This document shows, one piece after another, positions 1 to 26,980 of a stretch of DNA of 26,980 nucleotides. The notes under the pieces were generated by a model. That model saw only the letters and a program-made list of their open reading frames with translations, ran no database searches and was not told the DNA's origin. Where the stretch lies: IMG/VR virus record IMGVR_UViG_3300027752_000085, positions 1-26,980 of that record; one strand, given 5' to 3'. Position numbers and translations under genes: made by a program. Source of the DNA: a virus. How positions within the stretch are numbered: the stretch's first letter is position 1; the number at the start of each line of letters is the position of its first letter.

Positions 1-75
1 GGCTGTACTACAAAAAATTCCCTTTTTTTGAAATAAAACCGAGTATATACATCTATACCCTTTACTTTATTTGTC

Positions 76-119
76 AACTCTCTGTTTTCCTAGTCGTAGC
101 AAGACATAGAGAGTTTTTT
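76..119 (+). repeat. Stem-loop followed by T run
   Basis: AACTCTCT at 76-83 pairs with AGAGAGTT at 108-115, followed by T residues to 119. The 24-nt loop is long for an intrinsic terminator but contains a small CTA/TAG inner pair. It could stop transcription entering from outside the terminus, or act as a cruciform next to the iterons. It is mirrored at 26862-26905. Confidence 0.4.
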
Positions 120-128
120 ACAAGAGAA

Positions 129-177
129 GTTGACAGAAGTTGACAGGAGTTGACAGGAAGTTGACAAGAAGTTGACA
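129..177 (+). repeat. Iteron array: five GTTGACA repeats with 10-11 bp period
   Basis: GTTGACA occurs at 129-135, 139-145, 149-155, 160-166 and 171-177, with start-to-start spacings of 10, 10, 11 and 11 bp. That is one helical turn each, so all copies face the same side of the DNA. Further TTGACA hexamers lie at 315-320, 378-383 and 398-403 (the last two as GTAATTGACA, 20 bp apart), and one inverted copy (TGTCAA) lies at 72-77. This is the classic arrangement for cooperative binding of a replication initiator or repressor. Confidence 0.75.
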
Positions 178-421
178 AATTTAAGTTCCTGGTTTTCAGA
201 GAGTTATCCAATCAAAACCTCTCTCTTCTATCTTTTTATTTTATTTTAAAAAATATAAAGGGTGTTTTATATTGGTTCATATAACGGTATAGAGTTCAAA
301 AAGTGTGTTAAGAGTTGACAATTGTTTTTTACGTCTAAGACCCTTTGTGTGCTTGAGTTTATGTGCTTTTACGGTAATTGACAAATTCGATTAGTAATTG
401 ACACTTTGGATTTTTTTTTAC

Positions 422-446
422 ATTCACCCACCTTATTCACCCACCT
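422..446 (+). repeat. Tandem 12-bp direct repeat (ATTCACCCACCT)
   Basis: Two near-identical copies lie at 422-433 and 435-446 with a 13-bp period. The C-rich strand stands out in an AT-rich region. The repeat is mirrored at 26535-26559. It is a likely protein-binding site, but the binder is unknown. Confidence 0.5.
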
Positions 447-522
447 GATAAGTAATGTTTAGTTAGTTTAAACCCGTTGTATCATTGGTTTTAAAAAAGT
501 TTATTTTTTTTTTTACAATTAA

Positions 523-554
523 TTAGGTTTATATGTTATATAATACTATATTTG
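523..554 (+). promoter_or_regulatory. Bacteroidota-type promoter facing inward, left arm
   Basis: TATATTTG at 547-554 fits the TAnnTTTG -7 box of Bacteroidota primary-sigma promoters. A weak -33-like TTAGGTTT lies about 17 bp upstream. Transcription would begin near 560 and run into the gene at 633 and the left operon. The identical copy in the right arm drives the opposite operon. Confidence 0.5.
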
Positions 555-565
555 TATCTCAATAT

Positions 566-622
566 ATCAGTGATCTAAAGCCGAGAAGTTCTCTTTCCTT
601 ACAGGTTGCTGATTTTTAATCA
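566..622 (+). promoter_or_regulatory. Operator-like short palindromes in the 5' leader
   Basis: Three perfect short palindromes lie between the promoter and the first start codon: ATCAGTGAT (566-574), GAGAAGTTCTC (583-593) and TGATTTTTAATCA (610-622). Their position just downstream of the transcription start suits autoregulation, possibly by the RHH protein encoded at 820-981. They are mirrored at 26359-26415. Confidence 0.35.
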
Positions 623-632
623 AATTTAAAAT

Positions 633-818
633 ATGAAATCAGTAAAGTCAGAAGTAAAAGAAGTTACAACTCAATTAACAGACCAGGAGTCTCAGTCACT
701 AAGTATTTTAATTCAAGCTGTAAAGATCGCTACAAAAGGAGGGGCTTTTGAAATCGAAGACGCAGTTGTTATTGGAACTGCTAAGAACAACTTAGAAAAA
801 TTAATAAAAAAATCATAA
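633..818 (+). CDS. Small conserved phage protein, left copy
   Basis: A 61-residue acidic-to-neutral protein and the first gene after the left promoter. The ATG is preceded by an A/T-rich leader without a Shine-Dalgarno sequence. Residues 16-60 look like two helices around a GGAFEIEDA turn. The pattern (helix of aliphatic residues, Gly-Ala-Phe, Glu-Glu/Asp-Ala, helix) reminds me of small Bacteroidota phage proteins of unknown function. There are no catalytic motifs. It ends two bases before the RHH gene and is probably co-transcribed and co-regulated with it. An identical copy lies at 26163-26348. Confidence 0.75.
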   Translation: MKSVKSEVKEVTTQLTDQESQSLSILIQAVKIATKGGAFEIEDAVVIGTAKNNLEKLIKKS

Positions 819-819
819 T

Positions 820-981
820 ATGAAAAAGAATTTAGTATTGCCAAAGAAAGAAGGTGGAACGGTAGGGAGTTTTGTAAGGCTCCCAATTGACTTAAAAGAA
901 GAAGCACAGATTTGGTGTATAAAGAATAAAAAGAGTTTAACTGATATCATTATTGAAGGTATCGAAAACGCTATTAATTAA
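820..981 (+). CDS. Ribbon-helix-helix (CopG/Arc-like) DNA-binding protein, left copy
   Basis: A 53-residue basic protein starting MKKNLVLPKK. Residues 17-53 have the ribbon-helix-helix layout: a short beta strand (SFVRLP), a first helix (DLKEEAQIWCIKNK), a turn with Ser-Leu-Thr, and a second helix (DIIIEGIENAIN). RHH proteins dimerise, and the paired strands enter the major groove, usually at tandem or inverted short repeats. Its gene sits just downstream of a promoter with palindromes and iterons, so self-regulation or iteron binding is a reasonable inference. It begins 2 bases after the upstream stop. The copy at 26000-26161 is identical, so the phage carries two doses. Confidence 0.75.
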   Translation: MKKNLVLPKKEGGTVGSFVRLPIDLKEEAQIWCIKNKKSLTDIIIEGIENAIN

Positions 982-982
982 A

Positions 983-1225
983 ATGGGAAAGTTATCTTTA
1001 AAACACGCAAGGTTAGACCCAAGTGTTTCTGTCTCTTTAATTAAAGACGAGGATAGCGGTGTTATGAATTGGAGGTATCGTTTTCTTATACTAAGTAAAA
1101 ATGGAACTTATAGGAAGCACGATCTAAGAGATTATGGTTATCACGAGTTTAGTAGCCTTGAGGAGTTTAAGTCTCGTATTGAGTATGAGATAGCATTAGA
1201 AAAACGAATGAACGAAAACGGATGA
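983..1225 (+). CDS. Hypothetical protein, 80 residues, left copy
   Basis: I chose the ATG at 983, one base after the RHH stop, over an upstream in-frame TTG at 953 that would run 29 bases into the RHH gene. The product (MGKLSLKHAR...) is rich in charged and aromatic residues. A predicted beta-rich centre (SVSVSLIKDED, NWRYRFLILSKNG) is followed by a charged C-terminal helix (FKSRIEYEIALEKRMNENG). I do not recognise the family. It overlaps the nuclease gene by 4 bases (ATGA), implying translational coupling. An identical copy lies at 25756-25998. Confidence 0.7.
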   Translation: MGKLSLKHARLDPSVSVSLIKDEDSGVMNWRYRFLILSKNGTYRKHDLRDYGYHEFSSLEEFKSRIEYEIALEKRMNENG

Positions 1226-1554
1226 AATCAGAAGCCAGGATACAGCAGGAGATTGTAATGTTTTTCAATAATGAGTATCCTGAGTTAAGAGGTTGCCTAT
1301 GTTACAATAACAATAATTCAGTAGGTGGCTTGAGGGGTAAGTTAAATAAATTCCTAGGAGTTGTAAAGGGACGTTCAGATATGGTTCTGTACTATAAAAG
1401 CTTTTCTGTGATGATAGAGTTAAAAACAGAAAAAGGAACACAGTCAGATCATCAAAGGGCTTGGCAGTATCTTATGAAACAACAAGGGTTCGAGTACTAT
1501 ATTATTCGTTCTATTGATGAATTTAAAGAATTAATAACTAAAATAATTATATAA
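1222..1554 (+). CDS. VRR-NUC-type PD-(D/E)XK endonuclease, left copy
   Basis: A 110-residue protein matching the compact phage VRR-NUC fold. It has an N-terminal helix SEARIQQEIV (3-12) with the usual Glu, Gly-Arg-Ser-Asp at 50-53, Ile-Glu-Leu-Lys at 65-68, and Gln78 in SDHQRAW. These give the D53...E66-x-K68...Q78 active-site pattern. The family cleaves branched or structured DNA, and some members act as Holliday-junction resolvases. Acting on junctions during phage recombination, replication or packaging is the likely role. It overlaps the upstream gene by 4 bases and the downstream start by one base (TAATG). Being duplicated inside a long inverted repeat is unusual. The family is confident; the substrate is not. 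Confidence 0.85.
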   Translation: MKSEARIQQEIVMFFNNEYPELRGCLCYNNNNSVGGLRGKLNKFLGVVKGRSDMVLYYKSFSVMIELKTEKGTQSDHQRAWQYLMKQQGFEYYIIRSIDEFKELITKIII

Positions 1555-1886
1555 TGAGCGATAGTAAGGTAAAGTTTGAAGAATTAATGGAAAACGAGTT
1601 AACTGAGAATAAAAGTCTTAGAAATAATGAAAAAAAGGTATTAGAAGATGTTTTTGGAGATTATTGGGTATCAACCCTAAGTAGAGATGTTCCAACACAA
1701 TTAGAGTCTCCTCCCCATTACTCAAATAAAAACGGAAGTTTGTATAAAATAGGTTTAGAGAGAGGTTGGAACCCTTATCAGTTCGATGCGATTAAACGTA
1801 TTGATAGAGCATATAAAAAAGGAAACTTCAAAGAAGATATAGAAAAAACCGAATTGGTTTTAAAACTAATGCTAAAAAACGAATAA
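1554..1886 (+). CDS. DUF3310-like small protein
   Basis: A 110-residue protein. The C-terminal half (residues 52-107) resembles DUF3310, a small domain common in phages and of uncertain biochemical role. Pro-Pro-His-Tyr lies at 53-56, Tyr-Gln-Phe-Asp at 75-78, a helix with Arg82 and Lys88, and the Asp95-x-x-Lys98 pair preceding a hydrophobic helix, paralleling the family's PxHY...KY-x-R...K...DL-x-K pattern. The N-terminal ~45 residues are acidic and unassigned. Its first six codons (MSDSKV) lie in the repeat arm and are shared with the unrelated gene at the right edge. The match is by pattern, so it is moderate. Confidence 0.6.
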   Translation: MSDSKVKFEELMENELTENKSLRNNEKKVLEDVFGDYWVSTLSRDVPTQLESPPHYSNKNGSLYKIGLERGWNPYQFDAIKRIDRAYKKGNFKEDIEKTELVLKLMLKNE

Positions 1887-1963
1887 TGAGAATAATATTA
1901 ATAGTTGTGTTTCTTATTTTTTCAATGAGAATATTCAACAATAAAAACGAACCTTTTGAATAA
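1886..1963 (+). CDS. Putative 25-residue membrane peptide
   Basis: A short ORF (MRIILIVVFLIFSMRIFNNK...) whose ATG overlaps the upstream TAA by one base. Residues 2-17 form a hydrophobic segment followed by a polar tail, as in a single-pass micropeptide or unprocessed signal-like peptide. The tight spacing with both neighbours is the main reason to call it. Function is unknown. Confidence 0.45.
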   Translation: MRIILIVVFLIFSMRIFNNKNEPFE

Positions 1964-2138
1964 AAAAAAATCAGTTGGTCTTGGAGATTCAATCGCTAAG
2001 ATAACATCGGCTACGGGAATAGACAAAGTTGCTAATAAAATTGCAGAATTAGCGGGAAAAGAAGATTGCGGGTGCAATAATAGAAAAATTATATTAAATA
2101 AAAGATTTCCATATAAAAACGATGAAAAAAATGAATAG
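1956..2138 (+). CDS. Conserved small GLGD/DCGC-motif phage protein
   Basis: A 60-residue protein, probably starting at the TTG at 1956, which overlaps the previous stop by 8 bases; no ATG is available in frame before the conserved part. Layout: basic N-terminus, GLGDSIAKITSATGIDKVANKIAE helix region at about 8-31, Asp-Cys-Gly-Cys at 37-40, then RKIILNKRFPYKN. This arrangement recurs in many Bacteroidota phages near the packaging and structural genes in my experience, but no function is established. The two cysteines could bind metal or form a disulfide. The call is conserved, function unknown. Confidence 0.7.
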   Translation: MNKKKSVGLGDSIAKITSATGIDKVANKIAELAGKEDCGCNNRKIILNKRFPYKNDEKNE

Positions 2139-2499
2139 TAAAGAAATAAGAACTGTTAGTGGAGCAATAATTTCATCTTACGTAGCAAATCATTATTTAG
2201 AGGAGTCAAAGCATCTTGGTATTTTTCGTCAAAGCACTAAGAAAAACCTATCAAGAACTCTTTTAGACTTGGTAAAGATAGAGGAGGATTTTTATAATGA
2301 AGCAGAAAAAATAGATGACAAAGATATTTCTTCAAAAATGATCTGCAATAACTTAAATTTTATAGATGAATTTTTAAAATTTGACTTTAGTGACTTTAGT
2401 AAGTTGCAAGAAGTTTTTGTAGCATATACTTTAGATAAAAAAAGACTTACAAGTATAAGTGATAAAATACTAATAACTAACGGAGCAGATAAAAAGTAA
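2122..2499 (+). CDS. Hypothetical protein, mostly helical
   Basis: A 125-residue protein with two candidate ATGs at 2122 and 2131. The second gives an 8-base overlap with the upstream gene instead of 17. The sequence is helical and charged, with no transmembrane segment or catalytic motif. It ends with a TAATG overlap into the next gene, showing operon organisation. Family is not recognised. Confidence 0.7.
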   Translation: MKKMNSKEIRTVSGAIISSYVANHYLEESKHLGIFRQSTKKNLSRTLLDLVKIEEDFYNEAEKIDDKDISSKMICNNLNFIDEFLKFDFSDFSKLQEVFVAYTLDKKRLTSISDKILITNGADKK

Positions 2500-2720
2500 T
2501 GAATATTGGAGAAGCGTGTAAAATATGTTTTAATAACGGAATAAAAGTATATCCCGTAAAAGTTGGTGCTACTTGGAGAATTGAAGTAAAAAAAGAAAAC
2601 AATAAACCAATCCGTTACGAAAAGCCATTACGAGAGGGTTTAGACACAAGTAACGCAATTTCTAAGACATATTTTTTCTTAGCAAATAAAATTATAAAAA
2701 AAGAAAACAATATTATGTAG
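2499..2720 (+). CDS. Hypothetical protein, 73 residues
   Basis: Starts on the TAATG overlap with the previous stop. The product (MNIGEACKICFNNGIKVYPV...) has a short N-terminal helix (EACKICFNNG), a beta-rich middle (KVYPVKVGATWRIEVKKENN) and a C-terminal helix (AISKTYFFLANKIIKK). The outline could suit a small nucleic-acid-binding or accessory protein, but no family is recognised. It is the last gene before the gap preceding the portal. Confidence 0.65.
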   Translation: MNIGEACKICFNNGIKVYPVKVGATWRIEVKKENNKPIRYEKPLREGLDTSNAISKTYFFLANKIIKKENNIM

Positions 2721-2731
2721 ATTTTTTTTAG

Positions 2732-2739
2732 TATTTTTG
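2732..2739 (+). promoter_or_regulatory. Possible internal promoter before portal
   Basis: TATTTTTG fits the TAnnTTTG -7 box and lies in one of the few intergenic gaps (2721-2762), 24 bases ahead of the portal start. No convincing -33 element was seen, so this is tentative. Confidence 0.3.
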
Positions 2740-2762
2740 AGCAAATCTGTAAACTAATAGCA

Positions 2763-4106
2763 TTGAATATTATTCAGAAACTCAGAAAACTTACTTGGAC
2801 AAGGGATTCTTCAGGAAATAATTGGTACGTAGAGAACAATGGCAACGGCTTTGGTTCAGGTGAAAATATGACAAACTTGGAGATTTCTCAAAATCATCCA
2901 ATATTAACACCTGCATTATTATTTATCTCTAAATTATTTAGTCAAGCCGAATTTAAGATCGTAAACAAAGAAACAGGTAAAGAGGAAAAAAATCATTGGC
3001 TAATCAAACTTTTAAATAAGCCAAATTTATATCAAACAAAATCAGATTTTTTAGAAAGTTTGCAGTTTATTCAGATTGCTCAAGGAAAAGCTGTTGGTTA
3101 CTTAAAAAGACCAATAGGATTTAATGATGCGGAAGATATTGATTCAATCTATTTATTAGATTCAGACTTAATTGATTTTCCTGATGAGTACAACAACGCA
3201 AACTTTCGCTCACGTATGTTTTCATCAAGACTACAATCTGTTGCTGACAACGAAGAAATAACATACGACAAGAACGGTGAGAATTTAACTATTAAGATGA
3301 AAGACTTAATATTTTTCTACGACTTGCCTAATATGTTACAAAAAAACTTCTATGAGGTAAACTCAAGATTAGACGGATTAAGACAAACCTTACTTAACAC
3401 TAATGACTCTTTAATTGCTAAGAATATTATTCTAAAGACAAACGGGAAAGAGTTAATAAGCGGGGGTAACAACGAGCATTTTCCTCTTGCGGGGGATGAT
3501 AAAGAAAAAGCTGAAAGCCTACTACAAAACAACTACGGATTGGGTTGGTTCAGAAAAAGGGGTATCGTAACAAAGGCAAGTATCAATTATCAATCATTAC
3601 ATATAGCTTTAAGAGATTTAGGTCTTGATGAGTCTGTAAAAGTAGATGGTAATTTAATATATACGGCTTTACATATCCCTAAAGATATTATTTCTTTAGA
3701 AGCTAAAAAAACTACATACAATAACTTTAAGGAGTCTATGGTTTCGTATATTCAAAACGAAATGCAGGCTAATACAAACGCATTTACTGATGTTTTAAAT
3801 CAATTAATAGCTGATACTGACTACAAACTTGTAGGTACGTATGAGCATTTACCTATAATGCAATTCATTCTTATTGAAAGGTATGAGGGTATAAGCAAAA
3901 AAGCTAAAGCACTTAATGATTTATTAAACACTGGAATACCTAAAGAGGTTGCCTTAGAAATGTGTGGATTTGACAAAGACCTTAAATTGGAAGCTATTAG
4001 TATAATTGGAGATGATTCTGATTCTATTGATGAGTCACAAGGCGATTCTGAAGTAGAAGAAGAAAATGAAGAAGAAAATATAGAAGAACAAAATGGAGAA
4101 AACTAA
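2763..4106 (+). CDS. Phage portal protein (HK97-type)
   Basis: A 447-residue protein forming the dodecameric ring at the capsid vertex through which DNA is packaged and released. The N-terminal part fits this family: a helix near 49-60 (TPALLFISKLFSQAEFKIVN), NHWLIKLLNKPN at 77-88, then FLESLQFIQIAQGKAVGYLKR. The middle carries the helical stem region, and the last ~35 residues are strongly acidic (EEENEEENIEEQ). Length is normal for an HK97-like portal. The start is the TTG at 2763. Its position directly before protease and capsid confirms the role. The terminase that normally precedes it is instead at the other end on the opposite strand. Confidence 0.92.
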   Translation: MNIIQKLRKLTWTRDSSGNNWYVENNGNGFGSGENMTNLEISQNHPILTPALLFISKLFSQAEFKIVNKETGKEEKNHWLIKLLNKPNLYQTKSDFLESLQFIQIAQGKAVGYLKRPIGFNDAEDIDSIYLLDSDLIDFPDEYNNANFRSRMFSSRLQSVADNEEITYDKNGENLTIKMKDLIFFYDLPNMLQKNFYEVNSRLDGLRQTLLNTNDSLIAKNIILKTNGKELISGGNNEHFPLAGDDKEKAESLLQNNYGLGWFRKRGIVTKASINYQSLHIALRDLGLDESVKVDGNLIYTALHIPKDIISLEAKKTTYNNFKESMVSYIQNEMQANTNAFTDVLNQLIADTDYKLVGTYEHLPIMQFILIERYEGISKKAKALNDLLNTGIPKEVALEMCGFDKDLKLEAISIIGDDSDSIDESQGDSEVEEENEEENIEEQNGEN

Positions 4107-4197
4107 ACTAACAAAGGAGCAGTTACTTAAAATAGTAGAGAAAAAAAACAAACAACTCAACGACAAAAAAGTAATAAATAAATCTGTTTGTAAATAA
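4093..4197 (+). CDS. Putative 34-residue basic peptide
   Basis: A short ORF (MEKTKLTKEQLLKIVEKKNK...) overlapping the portal end by 14 bases and ending 4 bases before the protease start. It fills the portal-protease gap exactly. It is lysine-rich and probably a single helix. Position and spacing support translation; there is no functional clue. Confidence 0.45.
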   Translation: MEKTKLTKEQLLKIVEKKNKQLNDKKVINKSVCK

Positions 4198-4201
4198 AGC
4201 T

Positions 4202-5038
4202 ATGAAATTAGATATTCCAAATTACCAAACAAAAAAAGAGTTATTCGAGTTCTTAGTATTAAACAAAGAAACTCTTGTATCTCAGAAAAAAAGTGTTATT
4301 AAGTTAGCTGACGGTATTAGCGGAAGTTCTATTCATACCGAAGCAAAAAAGTTAGCAAACAAATCGCAAGACGGTTCCTCGGAGCCTGTTACCGAAATAA
4401 CGGTAAAAGCGGTTATAAATACTACCAACTTTTTAGATTCACACGGAGACGTTCATATTCCTGGTATTTGGAACAAGTCTTTAAAAGAGAACAATAGAAT
4501 AATGCACGTTCAGGAGCATAAATCAAGTTCTTTTGATAAAATTATATCAAGTGGTGACGATTTAAAAGCTACGGCTGAAACAATGACTTGGAAAGAGTTA
4601 GGGTATAATGCTATTGGAACAACTCAAGCTTTAGTTTTTGAGTCAAAGGTAAAGGAGTCTCGTAACAAATATATGTTCGACCAATACAAACAAGGATTTG
4701 TAAATAATCATTCAGTAGGAATGAGATACGTTAAAATGGAATTGGCTATAAACGATGAGGACTACGAAAAGGAGAAAAATTTTTATGACAAATATATTTC
4801 ACAGGTAATAAACAAAAAAGATGCTGAAGATTTAGGGTATTTTTGGGTAGTTACCGAAGCAAAAGTAATTGAAGGTTCAGCAGTACCAATGGGAAGCAAC
4901 CCAATTACTCCAACAACAAACATTGACAAAGAGCCGTCTTTCCTTGATTTACTTGGAAAAATAGACACTCAAGAGAAAGCCGCGGAAAGCACTTTCAGTA
5001 TAATTGATGCGATTAATAAAAACAATTTTTTAATTTAA
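4202..5038 (+). CDS. Prohead maturation protease (S78-like)
   Basis: A 278-residue protein of the HK97 prohead protease type, which digests the capsid scaffold domain before DNA packaging. The catalytic core spans about residues 65-235: NTTNFLDSHGDVHIPGIWNK (73-92), His106 in VQEHK, and Ser171 in NNHSVGM as the likely nucleophile. The EGSAVPMGSNP segment (224-234) is typical of the family's C-terminal core. The ~60-residue N-terminal extension and ~40-residue tail are of unknown role. Its gene directly precedes the major capsid gene, whose product carries an N-terminal coiled-coil delta-like domain that would be its substrate. Confidence 0.9.
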   Translation: MKLDIPNYQTKKELFEFLVLNKETLVSQKKSVIKLADGISGSSIHTEAKKLANKSQDGSSEPVTEITVKAVINTTNFLDSHGDVHIPGIWNKSLKENNRIMHVQEHKSSSFDKIISSGDDLKATAETMTWKELGYNAIGTTQALVFESKVKESRNKYMFDQYKQGFVNNHSVGMRYVKMELAINDEDYEKEKNFYDKYISQVINKKDAEDLGYFWVVTEAKVIEGSAVPMGSNPITPTTNIDKEPSFLDLLGKIDTQEKAAESTFSIIDAINKNNFLI

Positions 5039-5050
5039 ACAAACGTTAAG

Positions 5051-6313
5051 ATGAACAAAGAAGAATTTGACGCACTTATGTTAAAGATAGAGTCTTCTAT
5101 CGGTGCAAGTATGGACACAAAGCTAAAGGATGCTTTTAGAGAAGTAAATCCTCAAGTTTTAAAGGCAATTTCTGACAACTCTGAGGAGTTAAAGAAAACA
5201 GTAAAAAGTTTAGAAGCTAATAACGTATCATTAGTTGATGCACAAAAAAGCCAAGGTGCTGTTATTGAAGGTTTGACTGAAAAGTTAAATAAATCAAACG
5301 ACAACAAAAACATTTCTTTTAAAGCACAAGTAACTGAATTGCTAAACGCTAACAAAGAGAAGTTAGTATCAATGAAGAACGGAGATTCTAAGACGAATAT
5401 TCGTATGACAATGAAGGCAGTTGGAAATATGACAATCGCTGGAAGTACAACAGGTCAATTACCACAAGCTGAAAGAGAATCAGGTATTACTCGTATAGTA
5501 AGAAGAAATCCTTTTATCTTAGAATTGGTAAACGTTGGAACAATTAGTTCTAACTTATGGGAGTGGGTACAACAGGCTAATCCTGAAGGAGCACCTGCAA
5601 TGACTGCTGAAGGAGCAGCTAAGGCTCAAGTTGATTTTGAATTAGTACTTGCAAGTGCAGCAGTACGTAAAGTTACCGCTTATATCAAGGTATCTAAAGA
5701 AATGTTAGATGATATTCCTTTAATGGAGTCTGAAATCAATCAAGAACTTTCTGAGAGAATCAATTTAACTATTGACGCTCAATTGTTATCAGGAGACGGA
5801 ACAGGACAAAACTTAACAGGTATTTTAGCTAACGCTACTGCTTTTGCTCCAGGTTCTTTTGCTACGGGTCAAGTTAATCAAGTTATAACTCCAATTAATG
5901 CTGATGTATTAAGAGTTGCTATTAACCAAATTTCAACTGCACTTTTTGAAGCTAATTATATTGTTATGAATCCTTCTGATGTTGCAGCAATGGATTTAGC
6001 AAAAGGTTCTGACGGTCACTATATTTTACCTCCATTTTCTACAAACGCAAATACTGTTGTAAAAGGTATTCCAGTTATTGCTAACACAGGAGTTACTGAA
6101 GGAGATTACTTAGTAGGTGATTTCAGTAAAGCAGGAGTAAGATTCAGAGAAGGTTTAAGTTTTGATATAGGTTATGAGAACGATGACTTTACAAAGAATT
6201 TTGTAACTATCTTAGCTGAAGCGAGATTAGTTCAGAGAGTTAAATCTAATCATTATGGAGCATTCGTAAAAGGAGACTTCGCAGTAGATAAGGCAGCTAT
6301 CGCTAAAGCATAA
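5051..6313 (+). CDS. HK97-fold major capsid protein with N-terminal delta domain
   Basis: A 420-residue protein. Residues 1-~125 are charged and helical (MNKEEFDALMLKIESS...), as expected of a delta scaffold domain removed by the upstream protease. From about 135 the sequence follows the HK97 capsid pattern: QAERESGITRIVRRNPFILELV, then NLWEWVQQ, the E-loop-like AMTAEGAAKAQVDFELV, AYIKVSKEMLDDIP, and the spine-helix region SEINQELSERINLTIDAQLLSGDGTGQNLTGI, with the P-domain end YGAFVKGDF. Length is typical. It shells the genome. The gene is expected to be among the most expressed. Its stop overlaps the next start by one base. Confidence 0.95.
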   Translation: MNKEEFDALMLKIESSIGASMDTKLKDAFREVNPQVLKAISDNSEELKKTVKSLEANNVSLVDAQKSQGAVIEGLTEKLNKSNDNKNISFKAQVTELLNANKEKLVSMKNGDSKTNIRMTMKAVGNMTIAGSTTGQLPQAERESGITRIVRRNPFILELVNVGTISSNLWEWVQQANPEGAPAMTAEGAAKAQVDFELVLASAAVRKVTAYIKVSKEMLDDIPLMESEINQELSERINLTIDAQLLSGDGTGQNLTGILANATAFAPGSFATGQVNQVITPINADVLRVAINQISTALFEANYIVMNPSDVAAMDLAKGSDGHYILPPFSTNANTVVKGIPVIANTGVTEGDYLVGDFSKAGVRFREGLSFDIGYENDDFTKNFVTILAEARLVQRVKSNHYGAFVKGDFAVDKAAIAKA

Positions 6314-6453
6314 TGGGTCACTTTAAAGACACTACCGTTGAAATAAAATTTAACGGTAGAACTGTGAGAGTTTCACAGGGGGTCAAAGACTCTTTAGAGA
6401 AAGCTGGAAAACTTGATACACAAAATAAGAAAAAAGTAAAAACTGATAAGTAA
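6313..6453 (+). CDS. Small basic protein between capsid and connector
   Basis: A 46-residue ORF (MGHFKDTTVEIKFNGRTVRV...) beginning at TAATG of the capsid stop and ending at TAATG of the next start, so it is almost certainly translated. An N-terminal beta hairpin (TVEIKFNGRTVRVSQGV) is followed by a lysine-rich tail. Its position suits a head decoration, joining or connector accessory role, but no family is recognised. Confidence 0.6.
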   Translation: MGHFKDTTVEIKFNGRTVRVSQGVKDSLEKAGKLDTQNKKKVKTDK

Positions 6454-7106
6454 TGGCGCATTTGATTAATTCATCGTATTTTGAAAAAGGGGATTTATAT
6501 ATCCCAAACAATACTGATATAAATGTTGGCGAGGTTGGTATAACCAATCAAACTGACTTAGATTTCTATATTGTAGAATATGAGCGAGAATTATTAATCA
6601 ACGCATTAGGTATTGTTTTATACGAAGAATATTTAGTAGCACTAGATAACCTAAATCAAGCTGACCAAAAATGGACTGACTTGATAGACGGAAAAACCTA
6701 CGTAAATCCCTCCAATGTTACAAAACGTTGGGAGGGTTTAAGGGGTGCTAATAAACAAAGTCTTGTGGCTTGTTACGTATATACTCAATATCTTAGAAAT
6801 TACAATGAAACATTTGCAACTACGGGAGTAGTTCGTAATGACTCTAAAAACGCTACTAATTACGATTCAACACCAAAGTATATTAAAGCGTATAATAAAT
6901 TCATCGAACAATATCAATCCGACAATTTGCCAAACCCAAGAGTTTACGTAAACAGGTTTGGTACTAACGGTATAGATTGGTACGGCTCAGAAAATGCAAC
7001 GGTTTCATTATATCAATTTTTAACTGATTCTAATGACTTAGACAGTACATCTTTTCCTGACTTTAGTTTTAAGTTTTACGCAGAACAAAATTCATTTGGT
7101 ATATGA
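6453..7106 (+). CDS. Putative head-tail connector (adaptor) protein
   Basis: A 217-residue protein without membrane segments. The N-terminal half carries a helix pair (LDFYIVEYERELLINALGIVLYEEYLVALDNL) and a middle region KRWEGLRGANKQSLVACYVYTQYLRN that resembles Bacteroidota phage connector-type proteins. Position right after capsid, and before a tail-terminator-like gene and the tail tube, is where the gp6-type adaptor closing the portal is normally encoded. The assignment rests mainly on synteny. It overlaps the next gene by 4 bases. Confidence 0.6.
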   Translation: MAHLINSSYFEKGDLYIPNNTDINVGEVGITNQTDLDFYIVEYERELLINALGIVLYEEYLVALDNLNQADQKWTDLIDGKTYVNPSNVTKRWEGLRGANKQSLVACYVYTQYLRNYNETFATTGVVRNDSKNATNYDSTPKYIKAYNKFIEQYQSDNLPNPRVYVNRFGTNGIDWYGSENATVSLYQFLTDSNDLDSTSFPDFSFKFYAEQNSFGI

Positions 7107-17643: not shown

Positions 17644-17648
17644 AAAAA

Positions 17649-20639
17649 ATGAGTTCAGAAAGTTTGCAAGAAGCAGTAGCAAGAAATTCAACTTGGATTA
17701 ATTCAGTTATTACAAATAGTAAGTTATCTTCTCAACTAACAGAGTTGCTAAGTATAACTAGCCTTGACCAAAAAGTTATAATACAAGAGGGAACATTAGA
17801 TGCTAAATACGCTAACCCAAAAACTCTACGTGGTTATAAGGGTGATTGGGAAGCTGATACAAATAATCCCGTATTATCTAATAGTTCAGGTGTTGTTGGA
17901 GATATTTATAAAGTAAGTATCGGTGGTAATATTGATATTGGGTCAGGTTCAGTTGATTATGTTGTAGGCGACTTAATATATCTTTCTGAAGATAATTGGA
18001 TAAAAATATCTCCAAATCAAATATCTGATATAGCAGGTCTTCAGTTAGCTTTAGATTCTTTAGCGGGTGCGTTAATACCTCAAGGAAATTGGAACGCTAA
18101 TATAAACGACCCAGATATTGCAACAGGTGCTTCTACGGGTCAATTTTGGATAGTTTCTTTAGCAGGTTCTACTGACGTTGGAGGAATAACTGATTGGGAA
18201 CTAAACGATTGGGCTGTAAAAACTGAAACAGGTTGGGCTAAAATAGATAATAGTGATAAAGTAATAAGTGTAGCGGGAAGGGTAGGAGTTGTGACTTTAG
18301 GTATAACAGATATATCGGGTCTTACTACGTCTCTTGCTGAAGCGGTAAAATTAACAGGTGACCAAACGGTAGCTGGTATTAAAAGCTTTACCTCTGATTT
18401 TAAAGTAGCTGATAAGGTTATTTCTACGGGTGATGTTTTAAGTCTTCAAACAGGCAATGGATTTGGAGGTTCATTGATACTTAATGACGCAGCAGATACG
18501 CTTGTTTCTAATTTTGACTTACTTCAAGTTAAATCATTTTTAACAAGTACGGGAATGTCAAACAATTTTAACAACTCTGTTTTAAGGGTACTTGCTCCTA
18601 ATCCTATAAACAATACAGGTCTTTCTTCATTATCTTTAGCAACTTCAGACGCAAGTAGTTACGGTGTTAGTTTAAACGCTTGGAGGTTTGGAACCTCGGG
18701 ACAACCTAAGTTTGTTTTAAAAATGCATAACAACTCAGCAACGGGTTTAGACGCTCTTATTGTAGATACTTCAGGTAACTCAGTTTTTGCGGGTACTTTA
18801 GCAGCTTCTAATTTAATCGGAACAAACACTGGAGACCAAAGTTTAAGTATTAGCGGTCAAGTTTTAACTATCTCAGGAACAAATAGTATAACTTTACCTA
18901 CACAAGCAACGGGTAATTTTGTAACCTTAGATACCACGCAAACAATAAGCGGTTCAAAAATATTTAGTTCAGATTTAACTATATCAAATACTGGTAGTGC
19001 TAGATTAATATTGAATGGTGATAGCAATAATTCAGGAGATGCTGGGCAAGAAGATGCTATTATTGATTTCTTAGGAGATGCTGGGGATTATGGTTATAGA
19101 TTGAACTCAGAAAATTGGTCACAAAAAACTGCGTTTAATATTCAAGAGAATAGAAATGGTACTTATACAAGTAGACTTTATATAGATAATGATGGTAATG
19201 TAGGTATTGGAACTGATGACCCTTCTCACGAACTTACTGTTCAGGGTTCTGCAAGTCCAAATATAGAACTTAAAAACACTAACTACTCAAATGGTGGTTT
19301 TGTTTTAAATAGAAGTAATTACGGACAACAATGGAAATGGTGGGCTCAAGGTAGTTTAATGTATTTCGGATATTCTACTGATGAAATAAATTATACAAAC
19401 CATTTAACTATAAAATCCAATGGCGACTTAGGTATTGGAACAATTGACCCACAGGCTAAACTTGAAGTACAAGGTTCTATTTATGCCACGCCTATCATAT
19501 ACTCTTCAAGTCAAGATGCTTATGCTCTTAGAATGGGAGCGAATAATAATACTGGATTTGATATGGGTATTAAGATAAAATCAACTTCAGGAGGAAGTCC
19601 TTATATGTCTTTTAAAGTACCAAGTTTTGAAGATTTACTTGTTTTAAAAAGTGGTAACGTAGGTATTGGAACAGATAATCCACAATCTAAACTTCAGGTA
19701 ACTTCAGGAAGTACAGCTGAAACAACTTTAATAGTTGGTGCAAGTGAAACAAGTACAAATATATCTTCAAGAATATTTCTTAACGAAGGAGAGACTGGAG
19801 TTACAAATTCTAAAAAATATGGATTTTCATTAGCTTATGATGGTTCAGGTTCCGCTTATGGTTCCTTACCTGCAAATACTTTTGGAATTATTAGGCACAA
19901 TGGTACTGATGCAGGAGTTTCTGTATTATCTATTGGGAGGGGTTCTGATAATGTAGGTATTGGAACGACAACTCCTGATTATAGGCTAGACGTAATATCT
20001 GGTACAAATAATGGAATTAGAGTATCCGCTACTGACACAACAAGTAATTGGAGAGATATTAGTATAAGGTCTTATACCTCACAATCGGAAGCTGCTAGTT
20101 TTGTAGATGGTTGTCATATATATACTACCAACCCCACATCTGGAACTGGTGCTTTTACTAAATATGGAGGACTTGTTATACAGGGAAGAGACGATGGTAA
20201 TAGTGGTATATATCTTAGAGTAGGTGCTGGAAGCGGACAACTTGATGTTCTTACTGTAAATAATAGTGGTAGGATTGGAATTATGGACACAACTCCAAGT
20301 TATCCGCTAGATGTAAACGGAACTATTAGGGCTACTGGAAATATAATTGCTTATTCTGATATTAGGGTTAAGGAAAACGTTAAAACAATTGATAGTGCTT
20401 TAGACAAAGTAACAAAGCTTAGAGGAGTTGAATACAACAAGATAGGAGAAGATAGTAAGTCAATAGGTGTAATAGCACAAGAAATAGAAAAAGTTGTTCC
20501 TGAAGTAGTTGAGACGGATGAAAAAGGAATGAAAGCTGTTGCTTATGGGAATATATCAGGATTGCTAATAGAAGCAATAAAAGAATTAAAATTAGAGATA
20601 GAGGAGTTAAAAAATAACAAATGTAAATGTAATATATAA
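17649..20639 (+). CDS. Tail fibre with C-terminal S74 intramolecular chaperone
   Basis: A 996-residue fibre. The N-terminal ~250 residues hold GDWEADTNNP- and GNWNANINDP-type repeats and ISVAGRVGVVTLGITDISGLTTSL, typical of fibre attachment and shaft parts. From ~515 there are five copies of a [N/R]xGIGTxxPxxxLxVxG unit (near 517, 594, 671, 768 and 875, the last degenerate as GIMDTTP). The C-terminus from Ser903 (YSDIRVKENVKTI...) is a peptidase S74 chaperone: the Ser-Asp pair followed by Arg and Lys is the self-cleavage site, and GVIAQEIEKVVPEVV is the family signature. The chaperone would trimerise the fibre and then release itself. This is the likely receptor-binding protein. Confidence 0.93.
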   Translation: MSSESLQEAVARNSTWINSVITNSKLSSQLTELLSITSLDQKVIIQEGTLDAKYANPKTLRGYKGDWEADTNNPVLSNSSGVVGDIYKVSIGGNIDIGSGSVDYVVGDLIYLSEDNWIKISPNQISDIAGLQLALDSLAGALIPQGNWNANINDPDIATGASTGQFWIVSLAGSTDVGGITDWELNDWAVKTETGWAKIDNSDKVISVAGRVGVVTLGITDISGLTTSLAEAVKLTGDQTVAGIKSFTSDFKVADKVISTGDVLSLQTGNGFGGSLILNDAADTLVSNFDLLQVKSFLTSTGMSNNFNNSVLRVLAPNPINNTGLSSLSLATSDASSYGVSLNAWRFGTSGQPKFVLKMHNNSATGLDALIVDTSGNSVFAGTLAASNLIGTNTGDQSLSISGQVLTISGTNSITLPTQATGNFVTLDTTQTISGSKIFSSDLTISNTGSARLILNGDSNNSGDAGQEDAIIDFLGDAGDYGYRLNSENWSQKTAFNIQENRNGTYTSRLYIDNDGNVGIGTDDPSHELTVQGSASPNIELKNTNYSNGGFVLNRSNYGQQWKWWAQGSLMYFGYSTDEINYTNHLTIKSNGDLGIGTIDPQAKLEVQGSIYATPIIYSSSQDAYALRMGANNNTGFDMGIKIKSTSGGSPYMSFKVPSFEDLLVLKSGNVGIGTDNPQSKLQVTSGSTAETTLIVGASETSTNISSRIFLNEGETGVTNSKKYGFSLAYDGSGSAYGSLPANTFGIIRHNGTDAGVSVLSIGRGSDNVGIGTTTPDYRLDVISGTNNGIRVSATDTTSNWRDISIRSYTSQSEAASFVDGCHIYTTNPTSGTGAFTKYGGLVIQGRDDGNSGIYLRVGAGSGQLDVLTVNNSGRIGIMDTTPSYPLDVNGTIRATGNIIAYSDIRVKENVKTIDSALDKVTKLRGVEYNKIGEDSKSIGVIAQEIEKVVPEVVETDEKGMKAVAYGNISGLLIEAIKELKLEIEELKNNKCKCNI

Positions 20640-21144: not shown

Positions 21145-21315
21145 ATGAAATTAATTGATTTGAAGATATACGGACTAAACGGATTTGCATTAGCTATAAA
21201 TTACTCTGAAGTTGAAATAGGTATGAAAATTGTTCTTACAGCTGTTGTTATTGGTTATACATTGCAAAAGTGGTGGTTAATGAATAAAAACAAAAACAAA
21301 GATGAGGAAGATTAA
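21145..21315 (+). CDS. Single-TM holin-like peptide
   Basis: A 56-residue ORF (MKLIDLKIYGLNGFALAINY...) with one membrane segment (MKIVLTAVVIGYTLQKWWL, about 27-45) and a charged cytoplasmic tail NKNKNKDEED. It overlaps the amidase start by 14 bases. Small one-TM proteins of this shape directly before an amidase are common in Bacteroidota phages and may act as pinholin, holin or holin regulator. A second, better holin candidate lies at 21879-22274. Confidence 0.6.
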   Translation: MKLIDLKIYGLNGFALAINYSEVEIGMKIVLTAVVIGYTLQKWWLMNKNKNKDEED

Positions 21316-21721
21316 TAAAATAATACTTCATTGTTCAGCTACTCCTGAAGGTAGAAATGTTTTAATATCTGAGGTAAAACGTTGGCACGTAGAAGAAAGA
21401 GGTTGGTCTGATATTGGTTATCACTTTGTTATTGAGTTAGACGGCTCTGTGAGGATTGGAAGACCGATTGAAATTAAAGGTGCCCACTCTAAAGGAAACA
21501 ACTACGATAGTATAGGAGTTTGTTATATTGGAGGTGTTGATTTAGATATGAAAGCTAAAGATACAAGAACCGAGTGTCAAAAAGAATCTTTGGTAAACTT
21601 ACTTACTGAGTTGAAGGATACTTACGGGGGTCAAGTTTTTGGACATAGAGATTTTAGCGATAAAGATTGCCCAAGTTTTGATGCAAGAAAGGAATACGAA
21701 AATATAAGTTTTAGATATTAA
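21302..21721 (+). CDS. N-acetylmuramoyl-L-alanine amidase (endolysin, T7-lysozyme type)
   Basis: A 139-residue Amidase_2 enzyme that cuts the bond between the glycan strand and the stem peptide of peptidoglycan at lysis. Zinc ligands are His10 (IILHCSAT), His115 (VFGHRDFS) and Cys123 (DKDCPSFD). Tyr40 (DIGYHFVI) and Lys121 occupy the catalytic positions known from T7 lysozyme. The central GAHSKGNNYDSIGVCYIGG is characteristic. It has neither a signal peptide nor a cell-wall-binding domain, so it needs a holin to reach the wall, and two membrane-protein genes flank it. Confidence 0.95.
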   Translation: MRKINKIILHCSATPEGRNVLISEVKRWHVEERGWSDIGYHFVIELDGSVRIGRPIEIKGAHSKGNNYDSIGVCYIGGVDLDMKAKDTRTECQKESLVNLLTELKDTYGGQVFGHRDFSDKDCPSFDARKEYENISFRY

Positions 21722-21875: not shown

Positions 21876-21878
21876 AAT

Positions 21879-22274
21879 ATGAATAAGATTTTAAAGTGGT
21901 TTACGGGAGGTTTAGTTACCGAGGTAGGTAAGGTTATAGATAATTTATTTACGTCCGATGAGGAGCGTTTAAAAGCCAAAAACGAGGTATTTAAAGTACT
22001 ACAAGAACAACAACTAAAGTTACAACAATTACAAACTGAAATAATATTAGCAGAAGCTAACGGAAATTGGCTACAAAGAAGCTGGAGACCTATACTAATG
22101 CTTTCTTTTGGTTTTATAGTTATTTACGTTAAATTTATTGCTCCTTTATTTCAATTACCTATCCCACCTTTAGAAAATGAGTTTTGGAATCTTTTACAAT
22201 TAGGTATAGGTGGTTACGTAGTTGGTAGAAGTGTAGAGAAGGTTGCTAAAAATATTACAATTAATAAAAAGTAA
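21879..22274 (+). CDS. 3TM-type phage holin
   Basis: A 131-residue protein matching the holin 3TM family in pattern. An amphipathic charged helix (SDEERLKAKNEVFKVLQEQQLKLQQLQTEIILAEA, 26-60) is followed by NGNWLQRSWRPILML at 61-75, a transmembrane helix (FGFIVIYVKFIAPLF, 77-91), the short PIPPLE turn, and a last helix EFWNLLQLGIGGYVVGRSVEK. It would oligomerise in the inner membrane and release the amidase. It is the last gene of the left operon, just ahead of a convergent terminator. Confidence 0.85.
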   Translation: MNKILKWFTGGLVTEVGKVIDNLFTSDEERLKAKNEVFKVLQEQQLKLQQLQTEIILAEANGNWLQRSWRPILMLSFGFIVIYVKFIAPLFQLPIPPLENEFWNLLQLGIGGYVVGRSVEKVAKNITINKK

Positions 22275-22304: not shown

Positions 22305-22309
22305 AATTA

Positions 22310-23563
22310 TTAAATAAAATAAGGTTTTATATAATTTTTTAAACCTCTAAATGTTTCGTTTACAAACCCTCTACGACCTAATTTAAAGTTATTTTTTATC
22401 CAATTACTACTTGGTGAAGCAGCTGGGTAGTTATAGTAAAAGAAGTCATCTGAAGTACAGATATCAAACAAAGCTTGGTGACTATCTCCCTTTTTAAATA
22501 CAACTAAGTCTGCCTTTCTATATATTCCGTTTTGCTTACAGTATTGGTCTATCTTATCAGCACCCTTTAAATCTAAATGAGGTTTAAAACCAAACTTTAA
22601 ACTTTTATCATCTTTACCGTGGCTTATTACAAAACAAACCCTATTTACAAAATAGTGATTAATAAATTTTCTGTGATTTATAACCTTTACGCTTTCAAAC
22701 TGAAGTTCCGCTATTTCCTTAAAAGCCTTGTTTACAAAATAACCAAATGCTCCTGAGTGATTATCGTTACATATATTGTTAAAGTATATTTTATCATAGT
22801 GATTTACTAATCCGTACAATATTTTTAACTTAAACTCTAATCCTGCGTCAAAACATTCTTCATTTGTCATATTCTGAGGTAGTAAATGCCCTCCCCTTGT
22901 TGTAACACCGTTAAAACCGTCTAATAAGTCACCTAAATCATCAACGTATAGAGTATTACACTCTTGTTCTTTTATTGTTTCAGCTATTATTAAGTCAGCC
23001 GTTTTCATTAACTCCTTTTTATTCCAATCAGCTTTGTACATTGTATTGTTGTCAGAGTCAGACTCCATTCCAATATGTACGTCAGTATAGGTTAAAGTGT
23101 CAAAATCATCTTCTCCTCCCCAAATCTTTCTAGTTTTTTCAACAAAAACAGGTTTTAAGTACTTAGCAATGATATCTTCAAAGTTAAAGTTACTTATCTC
23201 CTCTATTACCTTGTCTTTAAATACAATATTCCAAAAAGGTGTTCCCGTATGACTTACTAATTTATATGATGAAATATCTTTTCTAGGTAACTTATAGTGA
23301 TTACAGTATTCGTCTATATCCATCATAAACCCCTTATCGCTCCAAGCAGAAAGAATTAACTTCTTTTCCTTGTAGTCGTTAGGACTTGTTTTACTAACTA
23401 AATTGTTTTTTACTTTAGGAACATTAACTCTATTAGATAAAGTAGTTTCCCATTGGTCTTTTGTTAGGTTATACCTATTCTGAGTTCTGTTTCCATCGTT
23501 TTTTTTTGGATTTAAACCTAAAAACTCTGCTTCTAACTTACTTAACCATCTTGTTTTTTTCAT
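22310..23563 (-). CDS. Calcineurin-like metallophosphoesterase
   Basis: A 417-residue protein. The metal-binding motifs occur in order: Asp161-x-His163 in YTDVHIG, Gly-Asp212-Leu-Leu-Asp-Gly, Asn-Asp-Asn268-His269 (the GNHD/E equivalent), His315-Gly in ISHGK, and a late His362. This is the dinuclear phosphoesterase fold shared by Mre11/SbcD-type nucleases. Residues 1-60 are basic with a possible helix-turn-helix (LTKDQWETTLSNR). Such proteins are frequent beside terminase genes in Bacteroidota phages, suggesting a role in DNA processing, but the substrate is not known. It reads from the right end as the last gene of the - strand operon, 18 bases after terminase. Confidence 0.85.
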   Translation of the reverse strand: MKKTRWLSKLEAEFLGLNPKKNDGNRTQNRYNLTKDQWETTLSNRVNVPKVKNNLVSKTSPNDYKEKKLILSAWSDKGFMMDIDEYCNHYKLPRKDISSYKLVSHTGTPFWNIVFKDKVIEEISNFNFEDIIAKYLKPVFVEKTRKIWGGEDDFDTLTYTDVHIGMESDSDNNTMYKADWNKKELMKTADLIIAETIKEQECNTLYVDDLGDLLDGFNGVTTRGGHLLPQNMTNEECFDAGLEFKLKILYGLVNHYDKIYFNNICNDNHSGAFGYFVNKAFKEIAELQFESVKVINHRKFINHYFVNRVCFVISHGKDDKSLKFGFKPHLDLKGADKIDQYCKQNGIYRKADLVVFKKGDSHQALFDICTSDDFFYYNYPAASPSSNWIKNNFKLGRRGFVNETFRGLKNYIKPYFI

Positions 23564-23581
23564 TTTACTTGTTTTAATTGA

Positions 23582-24889: not shown

Positions 24890-24892
24890 ATA

Positions 24893-25132
24893 TTATTCCT
24901 GAGAATCAGCAACGCTTGTAACGTGTTCTATAATAATCTTAGTTTCCTTAGACTCTACTGATATCTCTCTCCTTTGTAATTTAGGAGCAGAATATTCTAA
25001 AGTCTTAAAGTACGCTACGATAAAATCTTCGTCTTCCATTGTTGAAAGCAAAGCATTCATACGTTTAGAGTGAACCGTTTGCATACTTGTCAAAAGTTTC
25101 TCTAATTCATTTTCTCTTTCTTTATTTGCCAT
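24893..25132 (-). CDS. Putative terminase small subunit
   Basis: A 79-residue protein located directly upstream of the large subunit. It has an N-terminal charged helix (ERENELEKLLTSMQTVHSKRMNALL), an acidic turn (EDEDFIVAYFKTLEYSAPKLQRRE) and a polar tail. The last part resembles the C-terminal oligomerisation helix of small terminase subunits in Bacteroidota phages. The protein is shorter than usual and I cannot see a clear helix-turn-helix, so DNA recognition might be reduced or different. Position is the strongest support. Confidence 0.65.
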   Translation of the reverse strand: MANKERENELEKLLTSMQTVHSKRMNALLSTMEDEDFIVAYFKTLEYSAPKLQRREISVESKETKIIIEHVTSVADSQE

Positions 25133-25144
25133 ATTCTTTTTTAT

Positions 25145-25279
25145 TTATATTGCTAAAGCCCAATATACAATATTTACAACTGATTGTATCAATTGAAATA
25201 TACCTAACGCTGCAATTAATAATATTGATGTTAAAACTACAAAGCCTAAAGCTACTGATTCTTTTTTATTATTTTCCAT
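25145..25279 (-). CDS. Putative 44-residue single-TM protein
   Basis: The ATG overlaps the end of the upstream RHH-like gene by 11 bases. MENNKKES is followed by a long hydrophobic segment, VALGFVVLTSILLIAALGIF, then a moderately hydrophobic tail ending in YWALAI. It looks like a small membrane protein in the terminase operon. Function is unknown. The tight chain with its neighbours supports it. Confidence 0.55.
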   Translation of the reverse strand: MENNKKESVALGFVVLTSILLIAALGIFQLIQSVVNIVYWALAI

Positions 25280-25427
25280 TTTTTATATGTTTTTTATTTA
25301 ACCAATTAATTATAAGCAAATCTATAACATCTCCTTGATTTAATTCTAGTTCTGCACATTTCATTTTAAATTTAATCCTTGTTTTTTTATCTACCCAAGT
25401 CCCTACGAATACCTTACTATCGCTCAT
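25269..25427 (-). CDS. RHH-like small protein crossing the repeat edge
   Basis: A 52-residue basic protein, MSDSKVFVGTWVDKKTRIKF and onward. A beta strand (KVFVGTWV) followed by two helices (KKTRIKFKMKCAELE and QGDVIDLLIINWLNKK) matches the ribbon-helix-helix outline. Its first six codons are the innermost 18 bases of the right repeat arm; the rest is unique sequence. The other gene made from these same six codons is the DUF3310-like gene at 1554. It may regulate the terminase-side operon. Confidence 0.6.
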   Translation of the reverse strand: MSDSKVFVGTWVDKKTRIKFKMKCAELELNQGDVIDLLIINWLNKKHIKNGK

Positions 25428-25759
25428 TATATAATTATTTTAGTTATTAATTCTTTAAATTCATCAATAGAACGAATAATATAGTACTCGAACCCTTGTT
25501 GTTTCATAAGATACTGCCAAGCCCTTTGATGATCTGACTGTGTTCCTTTTTCTGTTTTTAACTCTATCATCACAGAAAAGCTTTTATAGTACAGAACCAT
25601 ATCTGAACGTCCCTTTACAACTCCTAGGAATTTATTTAACTTACCCCTCAAGCCACCTACTGAATTATTGTTATTGTAACATAGGCAACCTCTTAACTCA
25701 GGATACTCATTATTGAAAAACATTACAATCTCCTGCTGTATCCTGGCTTCTGATTTCAT
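25427..25759 (-). CDS. VRR-NUC-type PD-(D/E)XK endonuclease, right copy
   Basis: Identical 110-residue nuclease to that at 1222-1554, with all active-site residues (D53, E66, K68, Q78) intact. It is the last complete gene of the right repeat arm. Its stop overlaps by one base the start of the RHH-like gene that crosses the repeat edge. Confidence 0.85.
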   Translation of the reverse strand: MKSEARIQQEIVMFFNNEYPELRGCLCYNNNNSVGGLRGKLNKFLGVVKGRSDMVLYYKSFSVMIELKTEKGTQSDHQRAWQYLMKQQGFEYYIIRSIDEFKELITKIII

Positions 25760-25998
25760 CCGTTTTCGTTCATTCGTTTTTCTAATGCTATCTCATACTC
25801 AATACGAGACTTAAACTCCTCAAGGCTACTAAACTCGTGATAACCATAATCTCTTAGATCGTGCTTCCTATAAGTTCCATTTTTACTTAGTATAAGAAAA
25901 CGATACCTCCAATTCATAACACCGCTATCCTCGTCTTTAATTAAAGAGACAGAAACACTTGGGTCTAACCTTGCGTGTTTTAAAGATAACTTTCCCAT
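25756..25998 (-). CDS. Hypothetical protein, 80 residues, right copy
   Basis: Mirror copy of 983-1225 with the same ATG choice and the same ATGA overlap with the following nuclease gene. Function is not recognised. Confidence 0.7.
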   Translation of the reverse strand: MGKLSLKHARLDPSVSVSLIKDEDSGVMNWRYRFLILSKNGTYRKHDLRDYGYHEFSSLEEFKSRIEYEIALEKRMNENG

Positions 25999-25999
25999 T

Positions 26000-26161
26000 T
26001 TAATTAATAGCGTTTTCGATACCTTCAATAATGATATCAGTTAAACTCTTTTTATTCTTTATACACCAAATCTGTGCTTCTTCTTTTAAGTCAATTGGGA
26101 GCCTTACAAAACTCCCTACCGTTCCACCTTCTTTCTTTGGCAATACTAAATTCTTTTTCAT
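26000..26161 (-). CDS. Ribbon-helix-helix DNA-binding protein, right copy
   Basis: Identical 53-residue RHH protein to that at 820-981, encoded on the - strand in the right repeat arm. The beta strand SFVRLP followed by two helices supports the call. It is likely expressed together with the terminase-side operon. Confidence 0.75.
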   Translation of the reverse strand: MKKNLVLPKKEGGTVGSFVRLPIDLKEEAQIWCIKNKKSLTDIIIEGIENAIN

Positions 26162-26162
26162 A

Positions 26163-26348
26163 TTATGATTTTTTTATTAATTTTTCTAAGTTGTTCTTAG
26201 CAGTTCCAATAACAACTGCGTCTTCGATTTCAAAAGCCCCTCCTTTTGTAGCGATCTTTACAGCTTGAATTAAAATACTTAGTGACTGAGACTCCTGGTC
26301 TGTTAATTGAGTTGTAACTTCTTTTACTTCTGACTTTACTGATTTCAT
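26163..26348 (-). CDS. Small conserved phage protein, right copy
   Basis: Identical to the 61-residue product of 633-818 and the first gene of the rightward-originating - strand operon. Function is not recognised. The helix-turn-helix-like outline around GGAFEIEDA is the only visible structure. Confidence 0.75.
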   Translation of the reverse strand: MKSVKSEVKEVTTQLTDQESQSLSILIQAVKIATKGGAFEIEDAVVIGTAKNNLEKLIKKS

Positions 26349-26426
26349 ATTTTAAATTTGATTAAAAATCAGCAACCTGTAAGGAAAGAGAACTTCTCGG
26401 CTTTAGATCACTGATATATTGAGATA

Positions 26427-26458
26427 CAAATATAGTATTATATAACATATAAACCTAA
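26427..26458 (-). promoter_or_regulatory. Bacteroidota-type promoter facing inward, right arm
   Basis: Mirror of 523-554, with the TATATTTG -7 box on the - strand at 26434-26427. It would drive the right-arm genes and, through the tight - strand gene chain, the terminase and phosphoesterase genes. Confidence 0.5.
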
Positions 26459-26803
26459 TTAATTGTAAAAAAAAAAATAAACTTTTTTAAAACCAATGAT
26501 ACAACGGGTTTAAACTAACTAAACATTACTTATCAGGTGGGTGAATAAGGTGGGTGAATGTAAAAAAAAATCCAAAGTGTCAATTACTAATCGAATTTGT
26601 CAATTACCGTAAAAGCACATAAACTCAAGCACACAAAGGGTCTTAGACGTAAAAAACAATTGTCAACTCTTAACACACTTTTTGAACTCTATACCGTTAT
26701 ATGAACCAATATAAAACACCCTTTATATTTTTTAAAATAAAATAAAAAGATAGAAGAGAGAGGTTTTGATTGGATAACTCTCTGAAAACCAGGAACTTAA
26801 ATT

Positions 26804-26852
26804 TGTCAACTTCTTGTCAACTTCCTGTCAACTCCTGTCAACTTCTGTCAAC
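26804..26852 (-). repeat. Iteron array, right copy
   Basis: Mirror of 129-177: five GTTGACA repeats on the - strand with 10-11 bp spacing. The additional single sites are mirrored at 26578-26583, 26598-26603 and 26661-26666. Confidence 0.75.
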
Positions 26853-26980
26853 TTCTCTTGTAAAAAACTCTCTATGTCTTGCTACGACTAGGAAAACAGA
26901 GAGTTGACAAATAAAGTAAAGGGTATAGATGTATATACTCGGTTTTATTTCAAAAAAAGGGAATTTTTTGTAGTACAGCC

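Follow-up and report, generated by a model that had tools for sequence, protein, structure and literature searches.

The two ends of this viral contig are inverted copies of one putative control region, and we consider it most probable (roughly 60%) that two such copies bound the late region of a larger phage genome, with inward growth of the repeat by microhomology in this lineage. The window, by which we mean the whole stretch of 26,980 nt that was analyzed, is a single IMG/VR virus contig (IMGVR_UViG_3300027752_000085). Comparison of the window with its own reverse complement demonstrated that bases 1-1571 are the exact reverse complement of 25410-26980, with 1,571 identical bases and zero mismatches, which confirms a perfect inverted repeat reported earlier from a sequence-only reading and makes a chance origin impossible. 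The repeat boundary is abrupt, with similarity at chance level from 1572 onward. No direct terminal repeat was found by exact comparison of the window, and no long palindrome was found at its ends by self-comparison. The inverted repeat exists in the sequence as read and is probably biological, i.e., present in the virus, while the contig is probably incomplete and the repeat probably not a genome terminus. Each copy begins with ∼630 bp of noncoding DNA followed by two small open reading frames (ORFs) and a VRR-NUC nuclease gene, whose product is 53% identical to a VRR-NUC protein of a Nonlabens phage:

1..1571, plus strand: inverted repeat, left copy (exact self-comparison)
25410..26980, minus strand: inverted repeat, right copy, 100% complementary (exact self-comparison)
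128..177, plus strand: iteron-like array of five direct AGTTGACA units (mirror 26804-26853), with more TTGACA at 315, 378, and 398
547..554, plus strand: TATATTTG, a match to the Bacteroidetes -7 box, kept in relatives (mirror 26427-26434)
633..818, plus strand: small ORF of 61 aa, kept in relatives (mirror 26163-26348)
953..1225, plus strand: small ORF of 90 aa, kept in relatives (mirror 25756-26028)
1222..1554, plus strand: VRR-NUC nuclease gene (PF08774 just under the cutoff; PHROG 824, 93, and 5702; mirror 25427-25759)

Between the copies lie two gene blocks that converge near 22.3 kb. The plus strand carries small genes, a portal gene, a gene at the usual protease position, and the capsid, tail, amidase, and holin genes, while the minus strand, read from the right, carries a small gene, a probable terminase small subunit (TerS), the terminase large subunit (TerL), and an exonuclease. 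The genes that could be assigned are as follows, with G002, G011, G012, and G013 denoting related contigs:

2763..4106, plus strand: portal protein (PF04860; phrog_12)
5051..6313, plus strand: HK97-fold major capsid protein (PF05065; 65% identical to that of Flavobacterium phage hattifnatt)
9902..13195, plus strand: tail tape measure protein (PF20155)
17649..20639, plus strand: tail fiber with Peptidase_S74 chaperone (PF13884)
21302..21721, plus strand: amidase endolysin (PF01510)
21879..22274, plus strand: holin (PF11351; phrog_3427)
22310..23563, minus strand: exonuclease/calcineurin-like phosphoesterase (phrog_22398, 704, and 284; 41 to 43% identical to Cellulophaga phage proteins)
23582..24889, minus strand: TerL (PF04466, Terminase_3; 83 to 84% identical to G002)
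24893..25132, minus strand: probable TerS, from position and synteny with G002, G011, G012, and G013

Profile searches against Pfam and PHROG returned no family match for the TerS candidate at 24893..25132. Capsid, portal, terminase, and tape measure proteins of the families expected of an HK97-type siphophage of the Caudoviricetes (PF05065, PF04860, PF04466, and PF20155) are all encoded, and the window is a fragment of a phage whose relatives include marine flavobacterial siphophages. Using the Erf, SSB, primase, helicase, and DnaA proteins of three isolates as queries, no replication genes were matched in the window or in the relatives G002 and G005, nor was the SF3-type helicase of G011. 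The window has no tRNA genes and no Rfam matches. Near 7050, in the gene at 6453-7106, it is without an in-frame C-terminal segment of ∼85 codons carried by relatives such as G003.

Capsid searches recovered 80 contigs, about 30 of them with capsid identity of at least 67%, and the group members that reach this region encode VRR-NUC, small genes, portal, and capsid with TerL absent between them. The more distant G011, G012, and G013 retain the ordinary single-strand order of small gene, TerS, TerL, and portal, which indicates that TerS and TerL moved to the far end and the other strand in the lineage of the window. The sequence-only reading had described a TerL-packaged phage; a TerL is indeed present, but it lies on the strand opposite the portal, capsid, and tail genes. 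In G011 and G013 a gene for a DUF5906 SF3-type helicase/primase lies directly upstream of the small gene-TerS-TerL-portal series, and both contigs begin just before it. The converging layout of the window recurs in G002 (IMGVR 3300035698_005097; 25,135 bp), with TerL 84% and capsid 79% identical; in searches with TerL and the exonuclease, this was the only close relative in which a right arm was found. No close prophage or genome relatives were found. A 51-kb contig, G001 (IMGVR 3300022841_000021), was considered as a head-to-head double-length genome and rejected because it combines two distinct phages that meet at a tail fiber domain of 92% identity (17170-17897 and 50558-51285), a probable chimera. 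In another relative, G010, bases 1-4686 hold a tail fiber-like ORF of >1,500 aa built of repeated SAFG-type units.

The contigs of several relatives break near one homologous base. The ends of G002 form a perfect inverted overlap of exactly 127 bp. Its inner edge falls ∼38 bp upstream of TATATTTG and is homologous to base 508 of the window, not to base 1571:

508..509, no strand: homologue of the inner repeat boundary of relatives, the assembly-fork base (mirror 26472-26473)

Five contigs start upstream of this base by 126/127 bp (G002), 127 bp (G003), 127 bp (G004), 141 bp (G007), and 79 bp (L029). These distances coincide with default assembler k values, 127 being a usual maximum k of SPAdes and 79 and 141 belonging to MEGAHIT. 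The fork base was taken from G002 and is accurate to within one base, and G003 and G004 are closely related to each other. In a de Bruijn graph, the 127-bp overlap of G002 is what results when a contig starts and ends on one k-mer, in opposite orientations, at the inner edge of an inverted repeat that the assembler did not resolve; more generally, k-sized offsets imply sequence that is shared upstream and divergent downstream, hence a repeat. The authors of CheckV attribute terminal repeats whose length equals k to the assembler (PMC8116208). Breaks at k distance from one homologous base, the mark of assembly stopping at an inverted repeat, were thus found in all five contigs. Strain variation was rejected as the common cause for these five, as it predicts an offset of zero rather than k. 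Four other contigs deviate: L021 starts at the fork itself (offset zero; excluded from the support), L026 and L036 start 106 bp away, and L031 starts 97 bp away. An inverted partner outside the window is proven only by G002, the second arm not being seen in G003, G004, G007, and L029. The repeat boundary nonetheless seems, from these contig starts, to be conserved across the group.

The sequence outside this boundary has the character of a control region. Eight direct TTGACA units occur in bases 1-640, against 0.17 expected, with five in a tight array that is largely kept in G005, where this sequence is ∼80% identical. The array resembles the iterons of an origin or a set of operators, and a function as replication origin is likely. 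The TATATTTG box is a putative flavobacterial-type promoter, and since both the box and the leader downstream of it are conserved, the left-arm operon is probably expressed from this region. Within the leader (552-632), CTAAAGCC and CTTACAG motifs are present in most relatives and the middle is variable, a possible RNA leader.

The inner edge of the window's own repeat lies farther in than that of G002, at a short sequence held by both arms:

1554..1886, plus strand: left-arm gene MSDSKVKFEELMENE..., first 18 bp within the repeat
1563..1571, plus strand: 9-bp microhomology AGTAAGGTA at the inner repeat edge of the left arm, found where the left-arm gene begins and also at the start of the right-arm gene in G002
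25269..25427, minus strand: right-arm gene MSDSKV-FVGTWVDKK..., an in-frame fusion over the repeat junction (hyphen), with G002 counterpart MSKVFVGTW...
25410..25418, minus strand: 9-bp microhomology AGTAAGGTA at the right junction

At this edge, ATGAGCGATAGTAAGGTA is followed by AAGTTTG in the left arm and by TTCGTAGGG in the right arm, and the right-arm gene of G002 starts with ATGAGTAAGGTATTCGTAGGG. The frame of the right-arm gene is preserved across the AGTAAGGTA join, through which the right arm appears to have gained ∼1.06 kb of left-arm sequence. The perfect identity of the copies suggests that this growth was recent or that identity is maintained by recombination.

Outward of the window, G005 (77 to 88% identical over most of the repeat) extends for another 1,643 bp past the point that corresponds to base 1, through a poly-G tract and small ORFs. 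The tract, CGGGGGGGGGGTCGGTC, occupies G005 bases 1627-1643, a few bases beyond that point, and could on its own have caused the assembly to break. Farther out, bases 72-251 of G005 contain six direct GTTTTTTAC motifs, and bases 1-2340 contain seven, against 0.02 expected. Sequence outside the copies was seen only on the left side of G005, not for the window itself or for a right side. Extension outward with the end motif GGCTRTACTACNAAAAATTCC matched, besides G005, two contigs without similarity to the repeat; the 141-aa ORF of G005, VRR-NUC, and the conserved motif GTTTAAAGAAGTTTAANNTTTTTT led to no contig with the other side, and no contig joining the remaining genome to either repeat copy was found. 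Isolates related by capsid or VRR-NUC have genomes of 35 to 39 kb, by which measure 8 to 13 kb may be missing from the contig.

We propose that the full genome would be 35 to 40 kb, with a marine flavobacterial host, and that its control region would combine the iteron-like array, as likely replication origin, with a flavobacterial-type promoter and leader. The ancestral copies would end just upstream of the promoter, and the next ∼1.06 kb of the left copy (promoter, small ORFs, and VRR-NUC) would have been copied to the right arm at AGTAAGGTA, giving the 1,571-bp perfect repeat and the in-frame MSDSKV-FVGTW fusion. Recombination probably keeps the copies identical within each genome and could, in addition, flip the orientation of the late region with respect to the remaining sequence, and the genome would be circularly permuted. 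Because the outer side of the repeat would be where assembly halted, bases 1 and 26980 would not be physical ends. The sequence-only reading had left two outcomes open; that of a larger genome in which an inverted repeat halted assembly is favored by the G005 continuation, the lack of matched replication genes, and the k-mer-offset breaks, over that of a complete phage with inverted ends. Against our reading, G005 is a relative (∼80% identical here) and another virus, and its upstream sequence could lie within a longer repeat.

The first alternative, an unlikely one, holds that the genome is linear and bounded by genuine inverted terminal repeats of at least 1,571 bp plus ∼1.6 kb, that the window ends inside them, and that replication is end based (protein primed or hairpin type) despite TerL packaging. 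Inverted copies do flank everything seen, nearly all contigs of the family stop in or near the repeat, and the late region is without ordinary replication genes. However, searches with the main proteins of the window, itself probably a partial genome, gave no match to a DNA polymerase B, terminal protein, or protelomerase; like genes in isolates occupy 35- to 39-kb genomes with standard replication modules; and the outward sequence of G005 is not inverted and repeated in the rest of that contig. The head-to-head concatemers or hairpin ends suggested by the sequence-only reading gained no positive evidence.

Next in probability, and itself improbable, is a laboratory origin of the right-hand copy, in which a displaced 3′ end annealed to the left arm at AGTAAGGTA and primed synthesis there during whole-genome amplification, and the assembler took the chimeric path. 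Inversions account for about 85% of amplification chimeras, most of which begin at complementarity of 2 to 21 nt (PMC1855051), a signature that the 9-nt junction of the window shares, and this explanation was therefore kept as a rival for the window's join. Set against it, these arms are also linked by an inverted repeat in G002, which comes from a different sample and has the join at another base, the relatives break at one homologous base with k-sized offsets, the fused gene remains in frame, and the chimera would need coverage above that of the true junction.

A shade more doubtful still is a TerL-packaged siphophage lineage with a linear genome whose kilobase-scale, origin-bearing inverted terminal repeats would grow by terminal copying, and which would replicate via head-to-head or isomerizing intermediates for the terminase to resolve. 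That the assembler alone created the repeat, by palindromic fold-back or concatenation, in a virus without one is very improbable: among IMG/VR contigs that have inverted terminal repeats and for which completeness was estimated, only 33.2% are of high quality (PMC8116208), and misassembly is known in this family from G001, but the inner flanks differ between the copies and are conserved with intact genes, where a fold-back would repeat adjacent sequence, the 9-bp junction homology is far below usual assembly k-mers, and G002 independently supports the arrangement.

Returning to inverted control-region copies around a late region, the nearest known systems are the Flavobacterium hattifnatt/snusmum siphophages (Hattifnattvirus and allies; 37 to 39 kb), which resemble the window in their HK97-type capsid (65%), TerL (36%), portal (27%), and late gene order. 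They encode TerS, TerL, portal, and capsid on one strand behind replication genes, whereas in the window TerS/TerL lie at the other end and on the other strand, and the sequence is enclosed by a long inverted repeat. Nonlabens phages P12024S/L and Cellulophaga phage phi46:1 encode VRR-NUC proteins 47 to 53% identical to that of the window, and in P12024S this gene precedes small genes that in turn precede TerL; unlike the window, these phages have a single VRR-NUC with the replication module upstream and no inverted copy annotated. Inverted repeats also lie at the sequence ends of phi29-like phages, Cp-1, and tectiviruses, where they are much shorter and go with a terminal protein and a protein-primed DNA polymerase; the window differs in that neither protein was matched and a relative continues past its end. 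Expanding chloroplast inverted repeats and poxvirus terminal repeats likewise have identical inverted copies whose inner boundary shifts by copying adjacent genes, an analogy between unrelated systems, the present one being a tailed phage known from metagenome contigs alone.

Quality tools can call inverted-ended contigs of this kind complete genomes, which the relatives argue against here, and the k-offset argument allows a repeat that breaks assembly to be recognized even when reads are not at hand. If our reading is correct, a marine phage group carries its origin and control region as two inverted copies around the late genes, with TerL on the opposite strand, and inversion isomers of the genome and a moving repeat boundary would be predicted.
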